NCBI RefSeq assembly: GCF_004087835.1
Contig: NZ_CP035119.1
Location: 930,001-994,000 of the forward strand
Length of the DNA: 64,000 nt
Origin: Halorussus pelagicus
GTDB lineage: Archaea; Halobacteriota; Halobacteria; Halobacteriales; Haladaptataceae
Reading direction: 5' to 3'
The notes under the pieces were generated by a model. The model worked only from the letters and a program-made list of their open reading frames with translations. It was not told the DNA's origin and did not search any database. A program made the position numbers and the translations under genes. Below, in pieces: positions 14,925-47,801 of this stretch (within the stretch, counting starts at the first letter, position 1; every line of letters begins with the position of its first letter).

Positions 14925-16634
14925 ATGGTCAGAAACAACCACCCAATGGATTCGGACGCGAATCGTGACCACAAAAGGCAGGGTGAACGGCGAAGTGCCC
15001 AGTACTATCGCATCCTGCTTCTCAGCGTCGTACTCGTTGGAGAGTTTCTCGCAGGCTTGCTATTCGTACTCGGTGTTCCGTTCGAAAGCCCCTACTTCAT
15101 CAGTCTGAATCTCGGCCTTCTCACGATCTTGACAGTGCTTCCAGTCGTGATTCGGTTGAGGACACGAAGCTTAAACGTCGCCGAGCTAGGCCTCTGGTTT
15201 AGTGCATTCTACTTCGCCCACATGGTTCTCGGCGGTCTTCACATACTGGTGTTCAATGGCCCGCCACTCGACTATCTACCATCAGATATAGCATTCTTCT
15301 ATCTTAGCGCAGGGCTCTCCGTCGCTACGCTCGGACTTATCTGTTTCTGGCTAGGGTACAGTCTTCCCATTGGGTATAGGATTACCAACCGACTTCCACC
15401 CTTCTCAAGTACGTGGGAACGCCACCGCCTCCCTGCAATTCTTCTCGGTTGTCTCGTCATCGCGTGGACAGCTCGGTTTGCGATTGTCTACCTATCATCT
15501 GGCAGTCTCAATGCATGGCTGGCAGCCCCCGCGAACGAGCGGTTTCTCGGCGTCCCCGGGATTACATATTTAAAGCTCGTCGGAGAACTTTCCGCCCTCG
15601 TTGGGTTTATCACACTCTCCATAGCTTACATTGACCGCGACTGGCGACTATATCTTGCTACCACCGCAATTCTCCTTCCCGAAATCGGATTCCGTCTATT
15701 GACAGGCATGCGACGGGCGGTCCCATTTCTTGTGCTCGGTTTAGTTATTACCGTCTACCTTCTCTCAAATCGGTCATTCCAAAAGTCCCTCAAGTACGGA
15801 GTCGCTGGAGCATCAAATATCCTACTCCTCGTCGTGATGTACCCATTCGTGTCCGTATATCGTCATACAGGCTCGCTCTCACTGACCGCCGTTGCAACGG
15901 AACTTACATCACTTGGATTACTCGACAGTCTTGGCCACCGACTGATTGGTGCAAACACACTCTCATTTTTACTCTATCGCGTCCCAAATCCTGTCCCCCA
16001 CTTCTACGGAAAAGACCTTTTACTAATTCCACAGTCCGTCGTTCCACGGCTGTTATGGCCAGGAAAACCCCAAACTAGTATGGGTCGTTTGTACGCAGAG
16101 ATCATCGTCGTTCCGGGCTCGTTCCCTGCAGCAAAAGCTGTCCCACCAACGATTCCGGGGCAACTATATTGGAGTGGAAGCTTTGCAGGCCTTATTATAG
16201 GAATGCTTACTATTGGTGTCCTGTGGAGGATTCTTAATAATTATCTCGTACGGCCACAAAATCACGTTGTAATCGCAGCGTTCGTCGGAATCATGTTTCC
16301 CTCGTTCTTTTATGTAATGGAACAGGATCTCATCGCGTTATTTACGAAGCACCTTTTCCGATTTGTATTGATGGGTAGTGTGGTGCTCCTTGCATCTGCT
16401 GACTTCCGTGGCGCTACGACTCGGCTGCCAGTAGAGAAATCAATTGTTTTGCGAGTGGGGACCAGACTGTGCGCCGTATTTACGAATTCTCAGCTCTACA
16501 AGAGTATATTTCGGTTACATGACTACACTGTCGCTGTTGGGCGAACGATGACGGCTACGTGGGAAAACTCGCTGCTACGTATGTCTCTACAAAGGTCGAA
16601 AGTATACTCTCTCACCCAGCAACTACGCCCGTAG
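14925..16634 (+). CDS. Wzy-like oligosaccharide repeat-unit polymerase
   Basis: The start at ATG 14925 gives 569 residues, and ATG 14946 is an alternative. The long frame upstream of it is arginine/proline-rich and overlaps the glycosyltransferase, so it is rejected. About twelve hydrophobic helices are visible, with a large extracytoplasmic loop around TGMRRAVPFLVLG to VPRLLWPGKPQTSMG. This topology and the WPGKP-type loop are typical of O-antigen/EPS polymerases, whose sequences diverge widely. It would join lipid-linked repeats outside the membrane. Codon usage is clearly AT-richer than its neighbours, suggesting transfer. Confidence 0.75.
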   Translation: MVRNNHPMDSDANRDHKRQGERRSAQYYRILLLSVVLVGEFLAGLLFVLGVPFESPYFISLNLGLLTILTVLPVVIRLRTRSLNVAELGLWFSAFYFAHMVLGGLHILVFNGPPLDYLPSDIAFFYLSAGLSVATLGLICFWLGYSLPIGYRITNRLPPFSSTWERHRLPAILLGCLVIAWTARFAIVYLSSGSLNAWLAAPANERFLGVPGITYLKLVGELSALVGFITLSIAYIDRDWRLYLATTAILLPEIGFRLLTGMRRAVPFLVLGLVITVYLLSNRSFQKSLKYGVAGASNILLLVVMYPFVSVYRHTGSLSLTAVATELTSLGLLDSLGHRLIGANTLSFLLYRVPNPVPHFYGKDLLLIPQSVVPRLLWPGKPQTSMGRLYAEIIVVPGSFPAAKAVPPTIPGQLYWSGSFAGLIIGMLTIGVLWRILNNYLVRPQNHVVIAAFVGIMFPSFFYVMEQDLIALFTKHLFRFVLMGSVVLLASADFRGATTRLPVEKSIVLRVGTRLCAVFTNSQLYKSIFRLHDYTVAVGRTMTATWENSLLRMSLQRSKVYSLTQQLRP

Positions 16635-16760
16635 CTACGAGAGTACTTCCGGAAACTAACTTCCAATGAGTAACGCCTGATAAAGATACATTATACAGGT
16701 TTAAAATCTAGCTAGTATAAAACTACGCACATTATAAGGGGCTATAGAGATACTAAAATG

Positions 16761-17420
16761 CTAGACTTTTTTACCAGTCACAAAATACCGTCGCATTCGG
16801 AACGGTAATGCTCCAAGTCGCCTCACAGTGGGATTTTGTAGAAATTCGAATCGGTTCATAAGACGCTCGCTGGCTACTTCGTACCCGTTTTCAGTAATCA
16901 ACAACTCCACATTTTTCGAAGAGAAGTGATGTGGATGCTCGTCGTCAAGAGCATCAATTATCGAGTTCCGCACAATTTCCGGGACTTCGTACGTGTTCAC
17001 CTCTAGCAATAGTTCGCCACCAGGACGTGTGACCCTTGAAATCTCACTTAGCACCTCTGCGGGGTCTATACAGTGGTCTAGTACGTTATAAGAGAGAACA
17101 ACATCAAAGGAGTTCGACTCAAAGGGTAACTTTTCACCGATTCCAGTTGTAAGTTCTGCGTGGCTCTCGGAGAGTTTGTATTTGTTGTGTAAAGTTAGCG
17201 GATCGATGGCGACAGCCTCACAGTTGAAATCTAAACTGTGAATCATACCCATTCCCGAGCCAACCTCGAGAACCCGAGCACCCTTCAGGTCCTCGAAACT
17301 TTTCCCGAAGAACTTCAGCGTCTCTCGCACCGTTTCCTTCGGCCAAGGTTGTTCTCTGTCAGCGTATACCTGTTTGTCATGACTTTGCCCTCTTTTCCAC
17401 GCCGACACTCGCGCTTTCAC
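16761..17420 (-). CDS. class I SAM-dependent methyltransferase
   Basis: This 219-residue protein starts at GTG 17420. It contains motif I VLEVGSGMGMIHSLDF, an acidic AIDPLTLH after strand 2, EKLPFESNSFDVVLSYNVLDH (motifs II-III) and LSEISRVTRPGGELLLEV. It is of the Methyltransf_11 type and may methylate a glycan residue or precursor. A minus-strand TATA at 17443-17448 fits a leaderless transcript. The 3' end converges with the polymerase across an AT-rich 126-base spacer that holds no other feature. Base composition is lower in GC than surrounding genes. Confidence 0.85.
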   Translation of the reverse strand: MKARVSAWKRGQSHDKQVYADREQPWPKETVRETLKFFGKSFEDLKGARVLEVGSGMGMIHSLDFNCEAVAIDPLTLHNKYKLSESHAELTTGIGEKLPFESNSFDVVLSYNVLDHCIDPAEVLSEISRVTRPGGELLLEVNTYEVPEIVRNSIIDALDDEHPHHFSSKNVELLITENGYEVASERLMNRFEFLQNPTVRRLGALPFRMRRYFVTGKKV

Positions 17421-17442
17421 GAAGCCGATTTCGGACGGCCGG

Positions 17443-17448
17443 TTTAAA
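17443..17448 (-). promoter_or_regulatory. TATA box for methyltransferase gene
   Basis: TTTAAA centred about 25 bases upstream of the GTG start at 17420 suits a leaderless haloarchaeal promoter. Confidence 0.5.
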
Positions 17449-17532
17449 AGTCTGATTCTCCTCCGTGGTTGATTCGGAACCTCGTCAATTACCCGTCAAG
17501 TAGTCTCGTCGTCGCGTTCAACGCTACAGAAC

Positions 17533-18984
17533 TCACTCGATAGATTCGAGAAGGATACGATCTGCATCGTCGAACCCGAGAACCGAAACGATAGCGAAGA
17601 AGACGATGAGCGACAGGCCACCGATAGCGAAGACGCGAACGACACCGGGGAGGAGTAGTTGCTTTCCGAACCACATCACCAGTGTCGCGCAACCGACCGC
17701 AAAGAATTCACGGACGTATCTCGGCGAGTAGGGTTGGATTCCGAGTAAGTACCAAACTTCCAGAAGTCGGAGCAAGTTGACCAGAGCCAGTGACATCGAA
17801 GTGGCGATTGCAGCACCGAGGAGGCCGAGTTGCTGGATGAGGACAAAGTTGAGAGCCACGTTCAGGACGGCAACTATCGACGTGTTGACCGCCTCGAGAC
17901 GCTCGTACTCAGACATGATGAGGAAGTACCCGCTGACGCCAGTACTCGCCGTGATCATCTGTCCAGCCCCCAGAACGACGAGTGCGACCTGCGTTTCCTT
18001 CGTTACGGTTCCAAACATGTTGAGAACGTCCTTTGAGAAGATACAGAGAAAAAGGAATCCGAGCACAGTGAGCATGGTAACCCACTTGGTCACCGACGTG
18101 TATACGCGAGCCAGACGCTCGTCCCGGTCGTTGTGCGTAAAGTCTGAGACCAACGAGGGGAGTATCGTGTTCGCGGACTTTAGTACCAGAGTTAGCAGTA
18201 CCGACGTTTGGAACACAGCCTGATACCAACCAGTTTCTGTCGCAGAGGTCAGAATCCCGAGAAAAAAGATGTCCGTCCACGATACGAGATACTGCATCGC
18301 GGCCGAGAGCAAGAGAGGAAGTGAAAACACCAATAGTTCGCGGGTGTTGAACGACGGGTGACTCTGTGGGGTAAGTACTCCCTCGGCGTAGAGATAGTAG
18401 ACGACGAGAACGATACCCAATACCAGCGACAGTAGATAGCCCCCAATCACATATTGGAGGTCGTCCAAAACGTATACTCCAACGGCGATCAAAAGTATGG
18501 CGAACCCGGACTGTCCGAGGTCCCTTGAATACACCGCATACTTTGTCTCTTTAAGTCCTCGGGTTATCGCCAACCCAACCATCAGCATTGCAAACAGCGG
18601 AATACCGAGATAGAACAACTTCACTTGGGACCGCATCGCCACGTCTACGACTGCGAAGATGACGTCTTGACCGACGTAGAGTATAGCAGCCACTACGCCC
18701 CCGGCGAAAAGAGGTATCCCAAGGCATAGAACCGCTGTTCCCGTAACTTTCGCGTCGTCTCCATCGGAGCGATATATTGGGATGAACTTCTGTGCTCCAC
18801 TCCCCAACCCGAAGCGAGCGAGGACGCTTCCGGCCTTCATCAGGACGAGCCCGAATGCGAAGACCCCCAGAGCGTCGGTTCCGAGCCCGCGAGCGATAAC
18901 GACGTTGAGTGCGTATCGAAGCCCCCGACCGATTAACCCTCCGAGAAACGCTATCGAGACGAGCTTCGTAATACTACGGCCCAT
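17533..18984 (-). CDS. oligosaccharide flippase (Wzx / polysaccharide-transport MOP family)
   Basis: This 483-residue protein has about 14 predicted helices. It begins with KLVSIAFLGGLIGRGLRYALNVVIARGLG, and the FGLGSGAQKFIP segment is typical of MOP-superfamily flippases. LSAAMQYLVSWTDIFFLG in the middle and YFLIMSEYERLEAVNTS in the second half match the repeated six-helix architecture. It should move lipid-linked glycan units across the membrane, supplying the Wzy-like polymerase. It is on the opposite strand to the polymerase, in a small minus-strand unit. Confidence 0.88.
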   Translation of the reverse strand: MGRSITKLVSIAFLGGLIGRGLRYALNVVIARGLGTDALGVFAFGLVLMKAGSVLARFGLGSGAQKFIPIYRSDGDDAKVTGTAVLCLGIPLFAGGVVAAILYVGQDVIFAVVDVAMRSQVKLFYLGIPLFAMLMVGLAITRGLKETKYAVYSRDLGQSGFAILLIAVGVYVLDDLQYVIGGYLLSLVLGIVLVVYYLYAEGVLTPQSHPSFNTRELLVFSLPLLLSAAMQYLVSWTDIFFLGILTSATETGWYQAVFQTSVLLTLVLKSANTILPSLVSDFTHNDRDERLARVYTSVTKWVTMLTVLGFLFLCIFSKDVLNMFGTVTKETQVALVVLGAGQMITASTGVSGYFLIMSEYERLEAVNTSIVAVLNVALNFVLIQQLGLLGAAIATSMSLALVNLLRLLEVWYLLGIQPYSPRYVREFFAVGCATLVMWFGKQLLLPGVVRVFAIGGLSLIVFFAIVSVLGFDDADRILLESIE

Positions 18985-19030
18985 CGATTAATTACACCGG
19001 ATAGCACAGAAAGAGGCCTCATAATTCTAC

Positions 19031-21526
19031 CTAATTTTCGTCCTCATGCCCCGACGGTGGTATGTCGGACGGGTTGCTCCCCCAACTCTTGTTCGGTTCC
19101 GAGCCAAGTTCTAATTCGAGTGTCCCACCCGCCGCAAACATCTCGTGTCGGAACCAGGGTCGGTCAAGTGACTTGCCATTAAGACTAGCGGCCTGTATGT
19201 ACTGATTATTCTGGCTGTTGTTCGTCGTCCGAATCGTGAACGTCTCGCCGTCGTAGTAGTCCCCGTTGAGGTGAATCGTCACCTCGTCGAAGATAGGGGA
19301 CGTCACTTCGTACACTGGAACAGCTGCTGCGCCGCCGCGAACTGAGAAGAGGCCGAGGGCCATAAGAACGCCCAGCGCACCCATCTGTCCTTGGTCCTCA
19401 TCACCATTATAACCAGCGTCGGGTGACACGTCGCCGTAGGCTTCTCGTTTGACCTGTCGGACCCACTTCTGAGCTGCCCATGGTCGCCCAAGATAGTTGA
19501 ACAGATGAGCCATGTGCAACCCCGGCTGATTTCCGAAGTCAACGCGACAGTCCGCTCGCTCGTCGCGTTCCGGGACGAAATCGTATTCCATGCCATCCTT
19601 GAATGCTGTTTCGAGCCAATCGGCGTACTCGTCGCGACCCCCGAAAAGATCAGCCAAACCTGCAACGTCGTGCGGCACGAAGTTAGTGTAGATAGCGGCG
19701 TTTGCCTCGGTGAAGTCCTCGGTGGTATTTCCTTCCCCTAATGGATGGAACGGCGTGAGCCAGGATCCATCTGTGCTCTTCGGTCGCATGTATCCGCGAT
19801 CGTCATCCCAGATGTGCCGATAGTTCTGCGCTCGCTCCCGAAACATCGATGCGTCCTCGACACGACCTAGCGAGGCGGCAAGTTCTGCCAGGCACCAATC
19901 TTGATACGCGTATTCAAGGGTCATTGACGCACCTTCGAGGTGATAACCGTTAGCCTCGATATCGGCTGGGACGTATCCTTGTTCCACGTAGTGTCTCATT
20001 CCGCCGCCGTGGGCGTTGTTAGCGTGTTCGTAGCCAGCATGATCGCGAATGCCGCCAGGGAAGGCGTTTTTTCGCAGACCCTCGTAGGCAGTTTGTATAT
20101 CGAAGTCGCGGATGCCCTTGTGCCATGCCGCGGAGATGAACGGAACTGCCTGATCACCGATCATGACGTATGTGTAATTACCACCAGAAGGACCGCGGGG
20201 GAGTAGATCTCCGTCTTCGTACATACGAATCATCGAGTTACAGAAGCTCGCCATTACCCGTGGATACGCCATCGACCAAAGGATGTTCAAATTCCACTGA
20301 CTTCCCCACCATGCATCGTGCTGGTGGTGGGGATAGCGAGGTTCACCCTCCTCGTCGGTTTCTACTCGGCGAACCGTTCTGAAGTCGTTAGTGTAGTCGC
20401 TGTACTGGCCGTCAACGTCACTTACAATACGCCGACCCAGTAGTGCATGCCACAGGTCCGTATAGAATTTTGTCTTTTGTCTATCAGAACCGCCCGACAA
20501 TTCGATACGTCCTAACCACTGATTCCACTCTGCCACAGCGTCCGCCCGAACCTCGTCGAAGTTCGAGTCCTGAAACTCAGCGTTGAGATTGCGCCGCGCC
20601 CCCTCGACACTCGTATAGGAGACGCCGACCCTGACTATAATGCGATCGCCATCAGACGTATTGTATCGAACGGCAGCGCCAGCATCACTGCCTGCTACTG
20701 AATCGACTCCTTTGTCACACTGTTCTCCACCTTCCCACCCCTCAAAGGCTTCGAACGGCTTACTAAACTGAGCGACGAAGAACACGGGTGTCTTGTTCGG
20801 CCGTCGAATGGTGCTGTCAAGTAGTGAGTATCCTTCTATTTCACTGTCGCTGACACGTCGAACCTCGGTATGAGATACCTCACTTTGGCCGATGTCGGCA
20901 CCAGTGTCGAAGAGAATTCGGCTTTCATCGTCGTCAGGAAAAGTATAGCGATGGACGCCGACTCGAGTGCTGGCCGTCAGTTCGGCAGTAATATCGTAGG
21001 CTTCCAGTTCAACTTGATGGTAGCCAGGAATGATTGTTTCGCGGTCGTGGCTAAACCGCGACTCGTAAGCGTCCATTCCGCGATGCCCCTTGAACTCGCC
21101 GGTCGTCGGCATTACTGGAATTCCAGCCAATTGCCACGCGTGGATATGACTGAAACACCGGATGTACTCACGGTCATATACGTAGCCAGCGTCCCACGCC
21201 CCGTCGGTAATCGTATCCGGACTGAGATTTACTAACCCGAATGGTCTGCAGGCCGAGGAGAAATAAAACCAACGTGTATCAGTGGTGTCGATACATGGTG
21301 CCACCCACTCAGTAGGTTTCTTCCCATCTATCGCTGGTTTGGGGGCATCGTCGTCAGGTGCGAGTTGTGATCTATTCGAACCTTCGTACTTCGTGGTTTC
21401 CGGTCTATCCTCTCCGGAACGGCTACAGCCAGCAAATCCCGCCATGATACTTGTGCCAGTTCCTAGCAACGCACGGCGCGTCCAGTTGACCCCCGTTTGC
21501 CATGTATCTGAATGACGATTCGTCAT
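19031..21526 (-). CDS. GH92 family glycosidase, Tat lipoprotein (probable alpha-mannosidase)
   Basis: This 831-residue protein has an N-terminal twin-arginine motif (NWTRRALLG) and a lipobox AGFAGC with cysteine near residue 34, so it is probably exported folded and lipid-anchored. GH92 features include the early WVAPCIDTTDTRWFYFSSAC region, FSHIHAWQLAGIPVMP, DAWWGSQWNLNILWS, SGGNYTYVMIGDQ and GDEDQGQMGALG. In the last, the acidic pair near residue 709-711 corresponds to the catalytic base region. GH92 enzymes are calcium-dependent exo-alpha-mannosidases. Its place in a glycan biosynthesis cluster suggests trimming or recycling of a mannose-containing surface glycan. TTATATA at 21543-21549 is a possible promoter. 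Confidence 0.9.
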   Translation of the reverse strand: MTNRHSDTWQTGVNWTRRALLGTGTSIMAGFAGCSRSGEDRPETTKYEGSNRSQLAPDDDAPKPAIDGKKPTEWVAPCIDTTDTRWFYFSSACRPFGLVNLSPDTITDGAWDAGYVYDREYIRCFSHIHAWQLAGIPVMPTTGEFKGHRGMDAYESRFSHDRETIIPGYHQVELEAYDITAELTASTRVGVHRYTFPDDDESRILFDTGADIGQSEVSHTEVRRVSDSEIEGYSLLDSTIRRPNKTPVFFVAQFSKPFEAFEGWEGGEQCDKGVDSVAGSDAGAAVRYNTSDGDRIIVRVGVSYTSVEGARRNLNAEFQDSNFDEVRADAVAEWNQWLGRIELSGGSDRQKTKFYTDLWHALLGRRIVSDVDGQYSDYTNDFRTVRRVETDEEGEPRYPHHQHDAWWGSQWNLNILWSMAYPRVMASFCNSMIRMYEDGDLLPRGPSGGNYTYVMIGDQAVPFISAAWHKGIRDFDIQTAYEGLRKNAFPGGIRDHAGYEHANNAHGGGMRHYVEQGYVPADIEANGYHLEGASMTLEYAYQDWCLAELAASLGRVEDASMFRERAQNYRHIWDDDRGYMRPKSTDGSWLTPFHPLGEGNTTEDFTEANAAIYTNFVPHDVAGLADLFGGRDEYADWLETAFKDGMEYDFVPERDERADCRVDFGNQPGLHMAHLFNYLGRPWAAQKWVRQVKREAYGDVSPDAGYNGDEDQGQMGALGVLMALGLFSVRGGAAAVPVYEVTSPIFDEVTIHLNGDYYDGETFTIRTTNNSQNNQYIQAASLNGKSLDRPWFRHEMFAAGGTLELELGSEPNKSWGSNPSDIPPSGHEDEN

Positions 21527-21819
21527 AGCGACCCGTAGAACGTTATATACATAAGTTGTTCGTTGTAGGTTAGACTGTGGTAGGAGTATCAGAGGCCTCC
21601 CGCATTTCAGTTCCGGGCAATATTAACCCATATAATAATTTTTGGTAAATTAAAACTTGGTCGCGTGGTCAGTAACGTGTTGACTATATGCATCATTTAT
21701 ATGTTTTTCGTCTGCAGACAATTGGCGTTACGGGGTTCCTCAGCTAAATACAGTGCATTTAGAAAAGCAATCCTTTTATTACGGCGGAGACCTCCTACAC
21801 AAGTGAACGAGGTACCACG
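21527..21819. other. AT-rich intergenic region with divergent promoters
   Basis: This 293-base spacer lies between divergent genes. It contains TATA-like TTATATA (21543-21549) for the GH92 gene and long AT-rich runs near 21625-21660 and 21765-21780. No open frame or RNA gene was seen. The low GC suggests promoter/regulatory DNA or the scar of an insertion. Confidence 0.4.
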
Positions 21820-22308
21820 TTGATACCGATCGACGAGGACGGAAATCTATTCGGAAAAGTGAACATCATCGATGCTCTCATTGTCGTATTCATTGTAATT
21901 GGAGCTTTAGGTGTCGCTGGACTTCTCTTGAACGATGACTCGGGTCGAGAGGACGAAGTCAAGGCGACCATTGAAGTCCAAGTCAACGGTGTGCATCCAT
22001 ATGTTGCAGACGCGATATCCGAGGGGCCGGTAGACGAGTCTGTCGTCGTCGCCGTCGTGAACAAGACGGTCGAACCGACGAGGACGGTCGTCAAGTCGGA
22101 AAACGGGACGTTACGCGAGCAGTCCCATCCGCAGAAGAGGACGATTCAGCTACAACTCACGGTGAACGCTACGAGTAGTCAGGACGAACTTCTACTTCAG
22201 GGTGAGCCGTTGGAAATAGGACGGTCGGTCCACTTCGACCTCGGAAAAACGACCGTCAACGGTACGATCACACGACTCGACGTAGACGGTAATCGTTCGT
22301 CACGATAG
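21820..22308 (+). CDS. DUF4330-like membrane-anchored protein
   Basis: This 162-residue protein starts at TTG 21820 and begins IDEDGNLFGKVNIIDALIVV. It has one membrane helix (IVVFIVIGALGVAGLLL) and then an extracytoplasmic beta-rich domain with VQVNGVHPYVADAI. The N-terminal D-x-DGNLFGKxNxIDA motif is characteristic of DUF4330 proteins, often found near haloarchaeal glycosylation genes. No enzymatic motif is visible. No in-frame ATG is present at the start, so TTG is chosen from the family motif. Confidence 0.7.
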   Translation: MIPIDEDGNLFGKVNIIDALIVVFIVIGALGVAGLLLNDDSGREDEVKATIEVQVNGVHPYVADAISEGPVDESVVVAVVNKTVEPTRTVVKSENGTLREQSHPQKRTIQLQLTVNATSSQDELLLQGEPLEIGRSVHFDLGKTTVNGTITRLDVDGNRSSR

Positions 22309-46783: not shown

Positions 46784-46910
46784 GTTGGAAAGATGGGGGT
46801 CGGGACCTAAACGGGTTTCTCATTTGCGTTGATCCAAACTAAATGCTGTGACTGCTACTGTTGTGCACTATCAGAGACGACTTATGTGAATAAAATAACA
46901 TTATTGGCCA

Positions 46911-46918
46911 TATTTATT
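46911..46918 (+). promoter_or_regulatory. TATA-like box before cysteine-rich peptide
   Basis: TATTTATT is centred about 22-26 bases upstream of ATG 46936, in an AT-rich stretch unlike the surrounding DNA. The spacing fits transcription starting at or just after that ATG. Confidence 0.5.
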
Positions 46919-46935
46919 TGTAATAGTAAGCTTTA

Positions 46936-47227
46936 ATGACCTTCAGTAATTAATACACCAACCGTCACCCCTACCGGTAACGGCGGATTCACCTGCTGGG
47001 GATGTGCGACCGTTGTCGGTATCGCCTGTGCTGGCGCAGCCACTCTCTCGTACTCAACATGCGTTTCAGCAGCATTTGCATCGTCCGTGTTCAGCCCCAC
47101 CGCCGGGGCTGCAGTGGCGGCGTTCTGTACGTATATTGTTGCAAACGCCGGAACGTTGTCCTGTGCTGCCGGAACTGCAGCTATCTGCGCTGGCGTCACG
47201 AACGACTGCCAGTTCCTAGAGGACTAA
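46936..47227 (+). CDS. halocin C8-like cysteine-rich peptide, reading frame broken at its start
   Basis: From 46940 to the TAA at 47225 an open frame encodes a Gly/Ala-rich hydrophobic peptide with eight cysteines: GGFTCWGCATVVGIACAG, YSTCVSAAF, AAVAAFCTYIV, LSCAAGTAAIC and VTNDCQFLED. A C-x-x-C near the front and hydrophobic blocks between cysteines recall the mature halocin C8 peptide. No ATG/GTG/TTG precedes the first cysteine in this frame. The well-placed ATG at 46936 is one base out of phase: without A46939 it would read MPSVINTPTVTPTGNGG and continue as one ~96-residue protein. No Tat or Sec leader is visible. Thus it is a recent pseudogene, a sequencing indel, or a gene with unusual initiation. 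Confidence 0.55.
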
Positions 47228-47254
47228 ATCCAACCGTAGCTAAAGAGCTACCGT

Positions 47255-47749
47255 ATGTCCGTGCCCAATGAAGACGAGAAAACAACGTGGAATGGCGTCG
47301 CGCTCGGGAGAGTCCTCGGTCGCGTAACCGCGGTCACCCTAGCGTTGTACGTCGTTAGCCTAATTTATCGGTCTGACAACGAGTTTATATCGGTAGTATT
47401 AGTTGTATTCATCATACTGTATGCACTTACATCGAGTGCTCGAGATATTCAGTACGGGTACTTCCCATGGGAACCCGTCGAGTGGACGCCGGTGCATCTC
47501 GACGAACTTGACGCTGAGGAGGGTAAACGTGCGCTCCGCTGGACAATAGCGCTAAAATCTCTATTGGTTGTCGGGGCTATTGGCTGCCTCGCCGCTAGTT
47601 TCGCGGCCGGTCTCGAAACACTGGGATACGTACTACTGATTGGTGGAACTCCAACATTGGTCGTCAAGATGTATCAACACTATTCAAACGGAACGAGACC
47701 GTGGTATCCGGTAGTTCCGTCTCGCTTAGACGGATCGCAGGCAGAATAG
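47255..47749 (+). CDS. hypothetical four-helix membrane protein, candidate immunity partner
   Basis: This 164-residue protein has four hydrophobic segments (VTAVTLALYVVSLIY, VVLVVFIILYALTSSA, IALKSLLVVGAIGCLAASF and TLGYVLLIGGTPTLVV). A conserved-looking YGYFPWEPVEWTPVHLDEL lies between helices 2 and 3. It starts 27 bases after the cysteine-rich peptide on the same strand, in similarly AT-rich DNA. An immunity or export role is inference from position and topology only. No family was recognised. Confidence 0.7.
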   Translation: MSVPNEDEKTTWNGVALGRVLGRVTAVTLALYVVSLIYRSDNEFISVVLVVFIILYALTSSARDIQYGYFPWEPVEWTPVHLDELDAEEGKRALRWTIALKSLLVVGAIGCLAASFAAGLETLGYVLLIGGTPTLVVKMYQHYSNGTRPWYPVVPSRLDGSQAE

Positions 47750-47801
47750 TAATCGAATCGATATCACGTACGAATTTGGGGGCGCGCGTCGTGGGGCACC
47801 C

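Follow-up and report, generated by a model that had tools for sequence, protein, structure and literature searches.

A truncated halocin-C8-type gene and its intact downstream companion, a candidate orphan immunity gene, in Halorussus pelagicus

We analysed a stretch of 64,000 nucleotides from the genome of Halorussus pelagicus (the window) and found the last third of a halocin-C8-type gene directly upstream of an intact gene for a small membrane protein. The most likely explanation is that the halocin gene was beheaded and left behind a companion that acts as an orphan immunity protein. The association of the two genes in relatives and their unequal decay both point to this function, while a mode of action at the membrane and expression of the companion in this organism are presumed.

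A truncated peptide gene

An open frame at 46940-47224 on the forward strand, closed by TAA at 47225-47227, translates into 95 residues, eight of which are cysteines, two of them in TCWGC. A preliminary description had noted this frame and its lack of a start of its own, and we confirmed both from the sequence and its translation: there is no ATG, GTG or TTG in register, and a TGA at 46937-46939 lies in register just before it. That the ATG at 46936 is out of register also proved correct; one base off the peptide frame, it yields only the five codons of MTFSN before TAA (46936-46953, forward strand). The DNA just upstream is AT-rich, with a GC content of 32% over 46830-46939. It contains TATTTATT at 46911-46918 on the same strand, about 25 bases upstream of this ATG, which, judged from sequence only, could serve as TATA box for a leaderless transcript that begins close to this ATG.

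By its length alone, the frame is within chance expectation. Its descent identifies it as protein-coding, because it shares 74% identity with a coding sequence of Natrinema zhouii (NZ_CP059154.1; residues 5-94, tblastn E 2e-33), the sole relative from a search of genome contigs, at a dN/dS of about 0.15. In N. zhouii, the homologous protein is a precursor of 302 residues. It opens with a twin-arginine-type leader starting MMFDDKLRRRDILKKTAIASALPMATGVASA, continues through a pro-region and ends in a C-terminal eight-cysteine domain, whose cysteines are all kept in the window. Translation in all forward frames revealed no leader or pro-region before 46952, where homology begins, so the twin-arginine leader and pro-region that precede a functional halocin C8-type domain in frame are absent. 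By this comparison, the feature at 46940-47227 (forward strand) is a beheaded remnant that lacks leader, pro-region and start codon, with approximately 640 bp of coding sequence missing.

The decay suggested in the preliminary description is therefore borne out, but two of its other proposals are not. The peptide does not represent a leaderless kind of halocin, given its homologue's leader and pro-region. Nor is it one indel (A46939) or a sequencing error away from an intact gene; no single-base change supplies the missing 640 bp, which rules out such a change as the sole cause. Overlooked were the absence of the 5' two thirds of a larger gene and the intact partner directly downstream. Taken by itself, the peptide remnant is a truncated gene of an ordinary sort. 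Although MTFSN is similar to the MMFDD of N. zhouii, the upstream DNA does not allow the ATG at 46936 to be identified as the original start, since it aligned with the N. zhouii promoter and leader no better than shuffles did (fraction 0.61).

The dN/dS of 0.15, together with the eight cysteines kept in five relatives, indicates that strand and frame are right and that the divergence accumulated mostly under constraint. In simulated drift without constraint, an open frame with all eight cysteines survived in only 2.9% of runs once 0.15 substitutions per site had accumulated. Half of the synonymous distance from N. zhouii comes to approximately 0.6. Thus, either the truncation is recent relative to the split from N. 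zhouii or some constraint remains. One rival reading is that the peptide is still made in leaderless form, with translation beginning at a non-standard start codon or shifting by +1 past the ATG at 46936. This possibility draws on the preserved frame and cysteines, a combination that neutral drift would seldom leave in place past 0.15 substitutions per site, and on the TATA-like stretch 25 bases upstream of the ATG. We nevertheless consider it very improbable, as all intact relatives have long precursors, a leaderless peptide would not leave the cytoplasm, the window has threonine in place of a conserved tryptophan, and a recent truncation accounts for the same data. The structure model of the peptide was weak (mean pLDDT 65).

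Relationship to halocin C8

The preliminary description had also proposed kinship with halocin C8, which holds through relatives rather than through the window's own score. The NCBIfam model TIGR04449 (halocin_C8_dom) matches residues 19-86 of the peptide with 18.2 bits (E 0.0039), short of the curated 24-bit threshold, and the intact N. zhouii protein scores similarly (17.9 bits). However, the peptide matches homologues in genomes G339 (E 2e-27) and G157 (E 7e-14), both of which exceed the cut-off (26.2 and 39.3 bits, respectively). A profile built from five relatives retrieved other halocin-C8-like loci with a best E of 2.4e-7 outside its own members, while none of ten column-shuffled control profiles gave a value below 0.01. 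When the profile of the subfamily was compared directly with that of canonical C8 domains, no significant similarity emerged. A match in G017 was set aside, having no cysteine pattern beyond FTCW.

Like halocin C8 (ProC8/HalI), the subfamily has a cysteine-rich C-terminal domain that opens with C-x-x-C and shows hydrophobic spacing, and the intact relatives of the window copy carry a twin-arginine-type leader and a pro-region. It differs in having eight cysteines, common to all five aligned members, against the ten shared by canonical halocin C8 domains, a set of ten that the window peptide also lacks. On this basis, the subfamily is distinct, and by homology the window peptide is a distant member of it. 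The window copy differs further in scoring below the curated cut-off, in lacking leader and pro-region, and in having a separate membrane protein gene downstream.

The genome of the window (G000:C1) additionally holds three full-length halocin-C8-like genes above the family cut-off, at 417137-417343, 1557201-1557410 and 2303422-2303631. Elsewhere, a halocin C8 copy (L016, G118:C52) has a pro-region broken by a stop, with no leader in frame.

The companion gene

Directly downstream of the remnant, at 47255-47749 on the forward strand, lies an intact gene for a 164-residue membrane protein, the candidate orphan immunity protein. In a structure model that drew on four sequences and reached a mean pLDDT of 72, the protein is predicted to form four helices, grouped into two tandem units of two helices with a PWxP motif after each unit. 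The N. zhouii locus resembles that of the window in the peptide (74% identity), in a companion homologue of approximately 60% identity directly downstream of the halocin, and in gene order; it differs in having the complete 302-residue precursor. Searches with the companion returned nothing significant from Pfam, NCBIfam or PDB sequences, and its best match in a fold search of the PDB had an uninformative E of 4.5. No companion was found in viral contigs, phages or plasmids, nor was the window peptide found in plasmids.

Few loci carry a companion of this type. Among 391 genomes of the class, relatives were found in G292, G199 and, weakly, G157, to which further searches added G339 and G421; the coordinates of the G421 match are nearly those of N. 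zhouii, and the two are probably the same genome.

Unequal decay of halocins and companions

We compared the fate of the two genes across these loci. In G292, the sequence of the halocin domain is interrupted by two in-frame stops, shifts frame close to its end and has lost cysteines. The leader is missing too, but the companion is open. The companion is also open in G199 (L047:3841-4356, G199:C1, reverse strand), where no halocin was found; its start reads MMCEHGYRRRDVLKKSAIAATIGRIAGR, resembling a twin-arginine leader joined straight to the companion, as would follow from deletion of the halocin. In G339, leader and mature domain lie in different frames beside an open companion, with the break in an A-run, so this frameshift could be a sequencing error. 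G157 presents the reverse case, with an open halocin and a companion carrying a TGA. Counting the window, the companion survives in four of the five damaged loci. In the window it is intact, has halocin-adjacent homologues in relatives and stands beside a broken cognate toxin gene, the arrangement of an orphan immunity gene.

The companion might instead be functionless and yet to decay, having arrived together with a halocin that was cut recently. Consistent with this, the divergence from N. zhouii, with its dN/dS of 0.15 for both genes, mostly predates the truncation, such that an open companion is no proof of present selection. In neutral runs, an open frame persists at 0.1 substitutions per site in approximately 20% of cases, so survival at low divergence is not rare, and in G157 a stop has broken the companion, with the halocin retained. 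In the window, perhaps too little time has passed since the truncation for selection on the companion by itself to be measurable. Against this reading, which we consider unlikely while granting it more weight than the other alternatives, the pattern of a companion kept and a halocin lost recurs in G292, G199 and G339, and in an unrelated family in G213.

That family belongs to another halocin subgroup (L005, L006, L012 and L022), whose companion is a different protein, 120-125 residues long, predicted to have four helices and unrelated to that of the window. In G213, the companion of this second type is open (L054:3018-3377, G213:C2, reverse strand), and the adjoining halocin-type gene has lost its leader frame and one conserved cysteine. 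Searching the 391 genomes gave five clear matches to the second family, all adjoining a halocin-type gene, that of G213 being the decayed one, and one weak match (G142, E 2e-4) with no halocin-type gene adjoining. More generally, a small gene with at least two predicted helices, starting within 150 bases, follows 14 of 35 halocin loci as against 2 of 49 control genes, a difference that is indicative only, some of the 35 loci being close relatives.

A role in halocin secretion, processing or regulation rather than immunity appears improbable. Such a role would fit the canonical C8 loci L007-L010 and L017, which have no such neighbour, and the immunity to halocin C8 reported to lie within the precursor (PMC11509114). 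However, an accessory protein would be useless after halocin loss, yet the companion is open in G199, G292 and the window.

A possible second route to immunity

On the preferred reading, that of an orphan immunity protein, the ancestral unit would have comprised a twin-arginine leader, a pro-region and a C-terminal eight-cysteine peptide, followed by the four-helix membrane protein. This unit would now occupy the variable gap that separates pus10 from a DUF7383 gene, its leader and pro-region having been lost or never having arrived; with neither of these, no halocin export would be possible. Provided that it is transcribed from the AT-rich, promoter-like stretch upstream, the companion would lie in the membrane as a four-helix protein and there block the same halocin subtype released by neighbouring strains, giving the cell protection without production.

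Immunity to halocin C8 is reported to come from HalI, which lies within the precursor itself (PMC11509114), and this means that no separate immunity protein need exist. The companion would be a second route to immunity besides HalI. A search confined to the open-access literature found no description of a separate halocin companion immunity protein. We regard as evenly balanced the broader proposal that halocins with eight cysteines differ from halocin C8 in having their membrane immunity protein encoded by a gene of its own, and that haloarchaea retain this gene as an orphan shield after toxin loss, in at least two unrelated companion families.

Orphan bacteriocin immunity genes have been documented on Escherichia coli plasmids (PMC12546727). 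As in the window, these encode small proteins retained without a working cognate toxin, sometimes adjoining a truncated toxin gene; in contrast, the present case is archaeal and chromosomal, shows no sequence relation to them, and has a putative immunity function. The stand-alone cassettes of polymorphic toxin systems (PMC3482391) similarly place a leaderless toxin domain beside a candidate immunity gene, but no matching full-length partner of the window subtype was found in the genome. If our interpretation is correct, a small membrane protein that recurrently outlasts its halocin would offer a directly testable second immunity route in archaea, and halocin attack in nature would seem frequent enough to select for protection without production.

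The insertion site

The pus10 and DUF7383 genes are neighbours across the genus, and the gap between them spans 1018 bp in the window (GC 0.52), as against 144 and 122 bp in two congeners (L057 and L058, respectively), where the site is nearly empty. Alignment of both junctions with congeners placed the inserted segment at approximately 46828-47768, an AT-richer insert of about 940 bp. We found no mobile-element repeats flanking the insert, and the segment upstream has no other copy in the genome.

In four other congeners (L060, L062, L064 and L068), the gap is filled by differing small genes, several of which, judged by eye, resemble PIN-type toxin/antitoxin pairs. As different congeners hold different genes there, the gap is a variable site. 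Elsewhere in the window, GC content falls to 46-55% over approximately 7 kb at 15001-22000, compared with 60-70% in most of the later window, and this region is possibly mobile.
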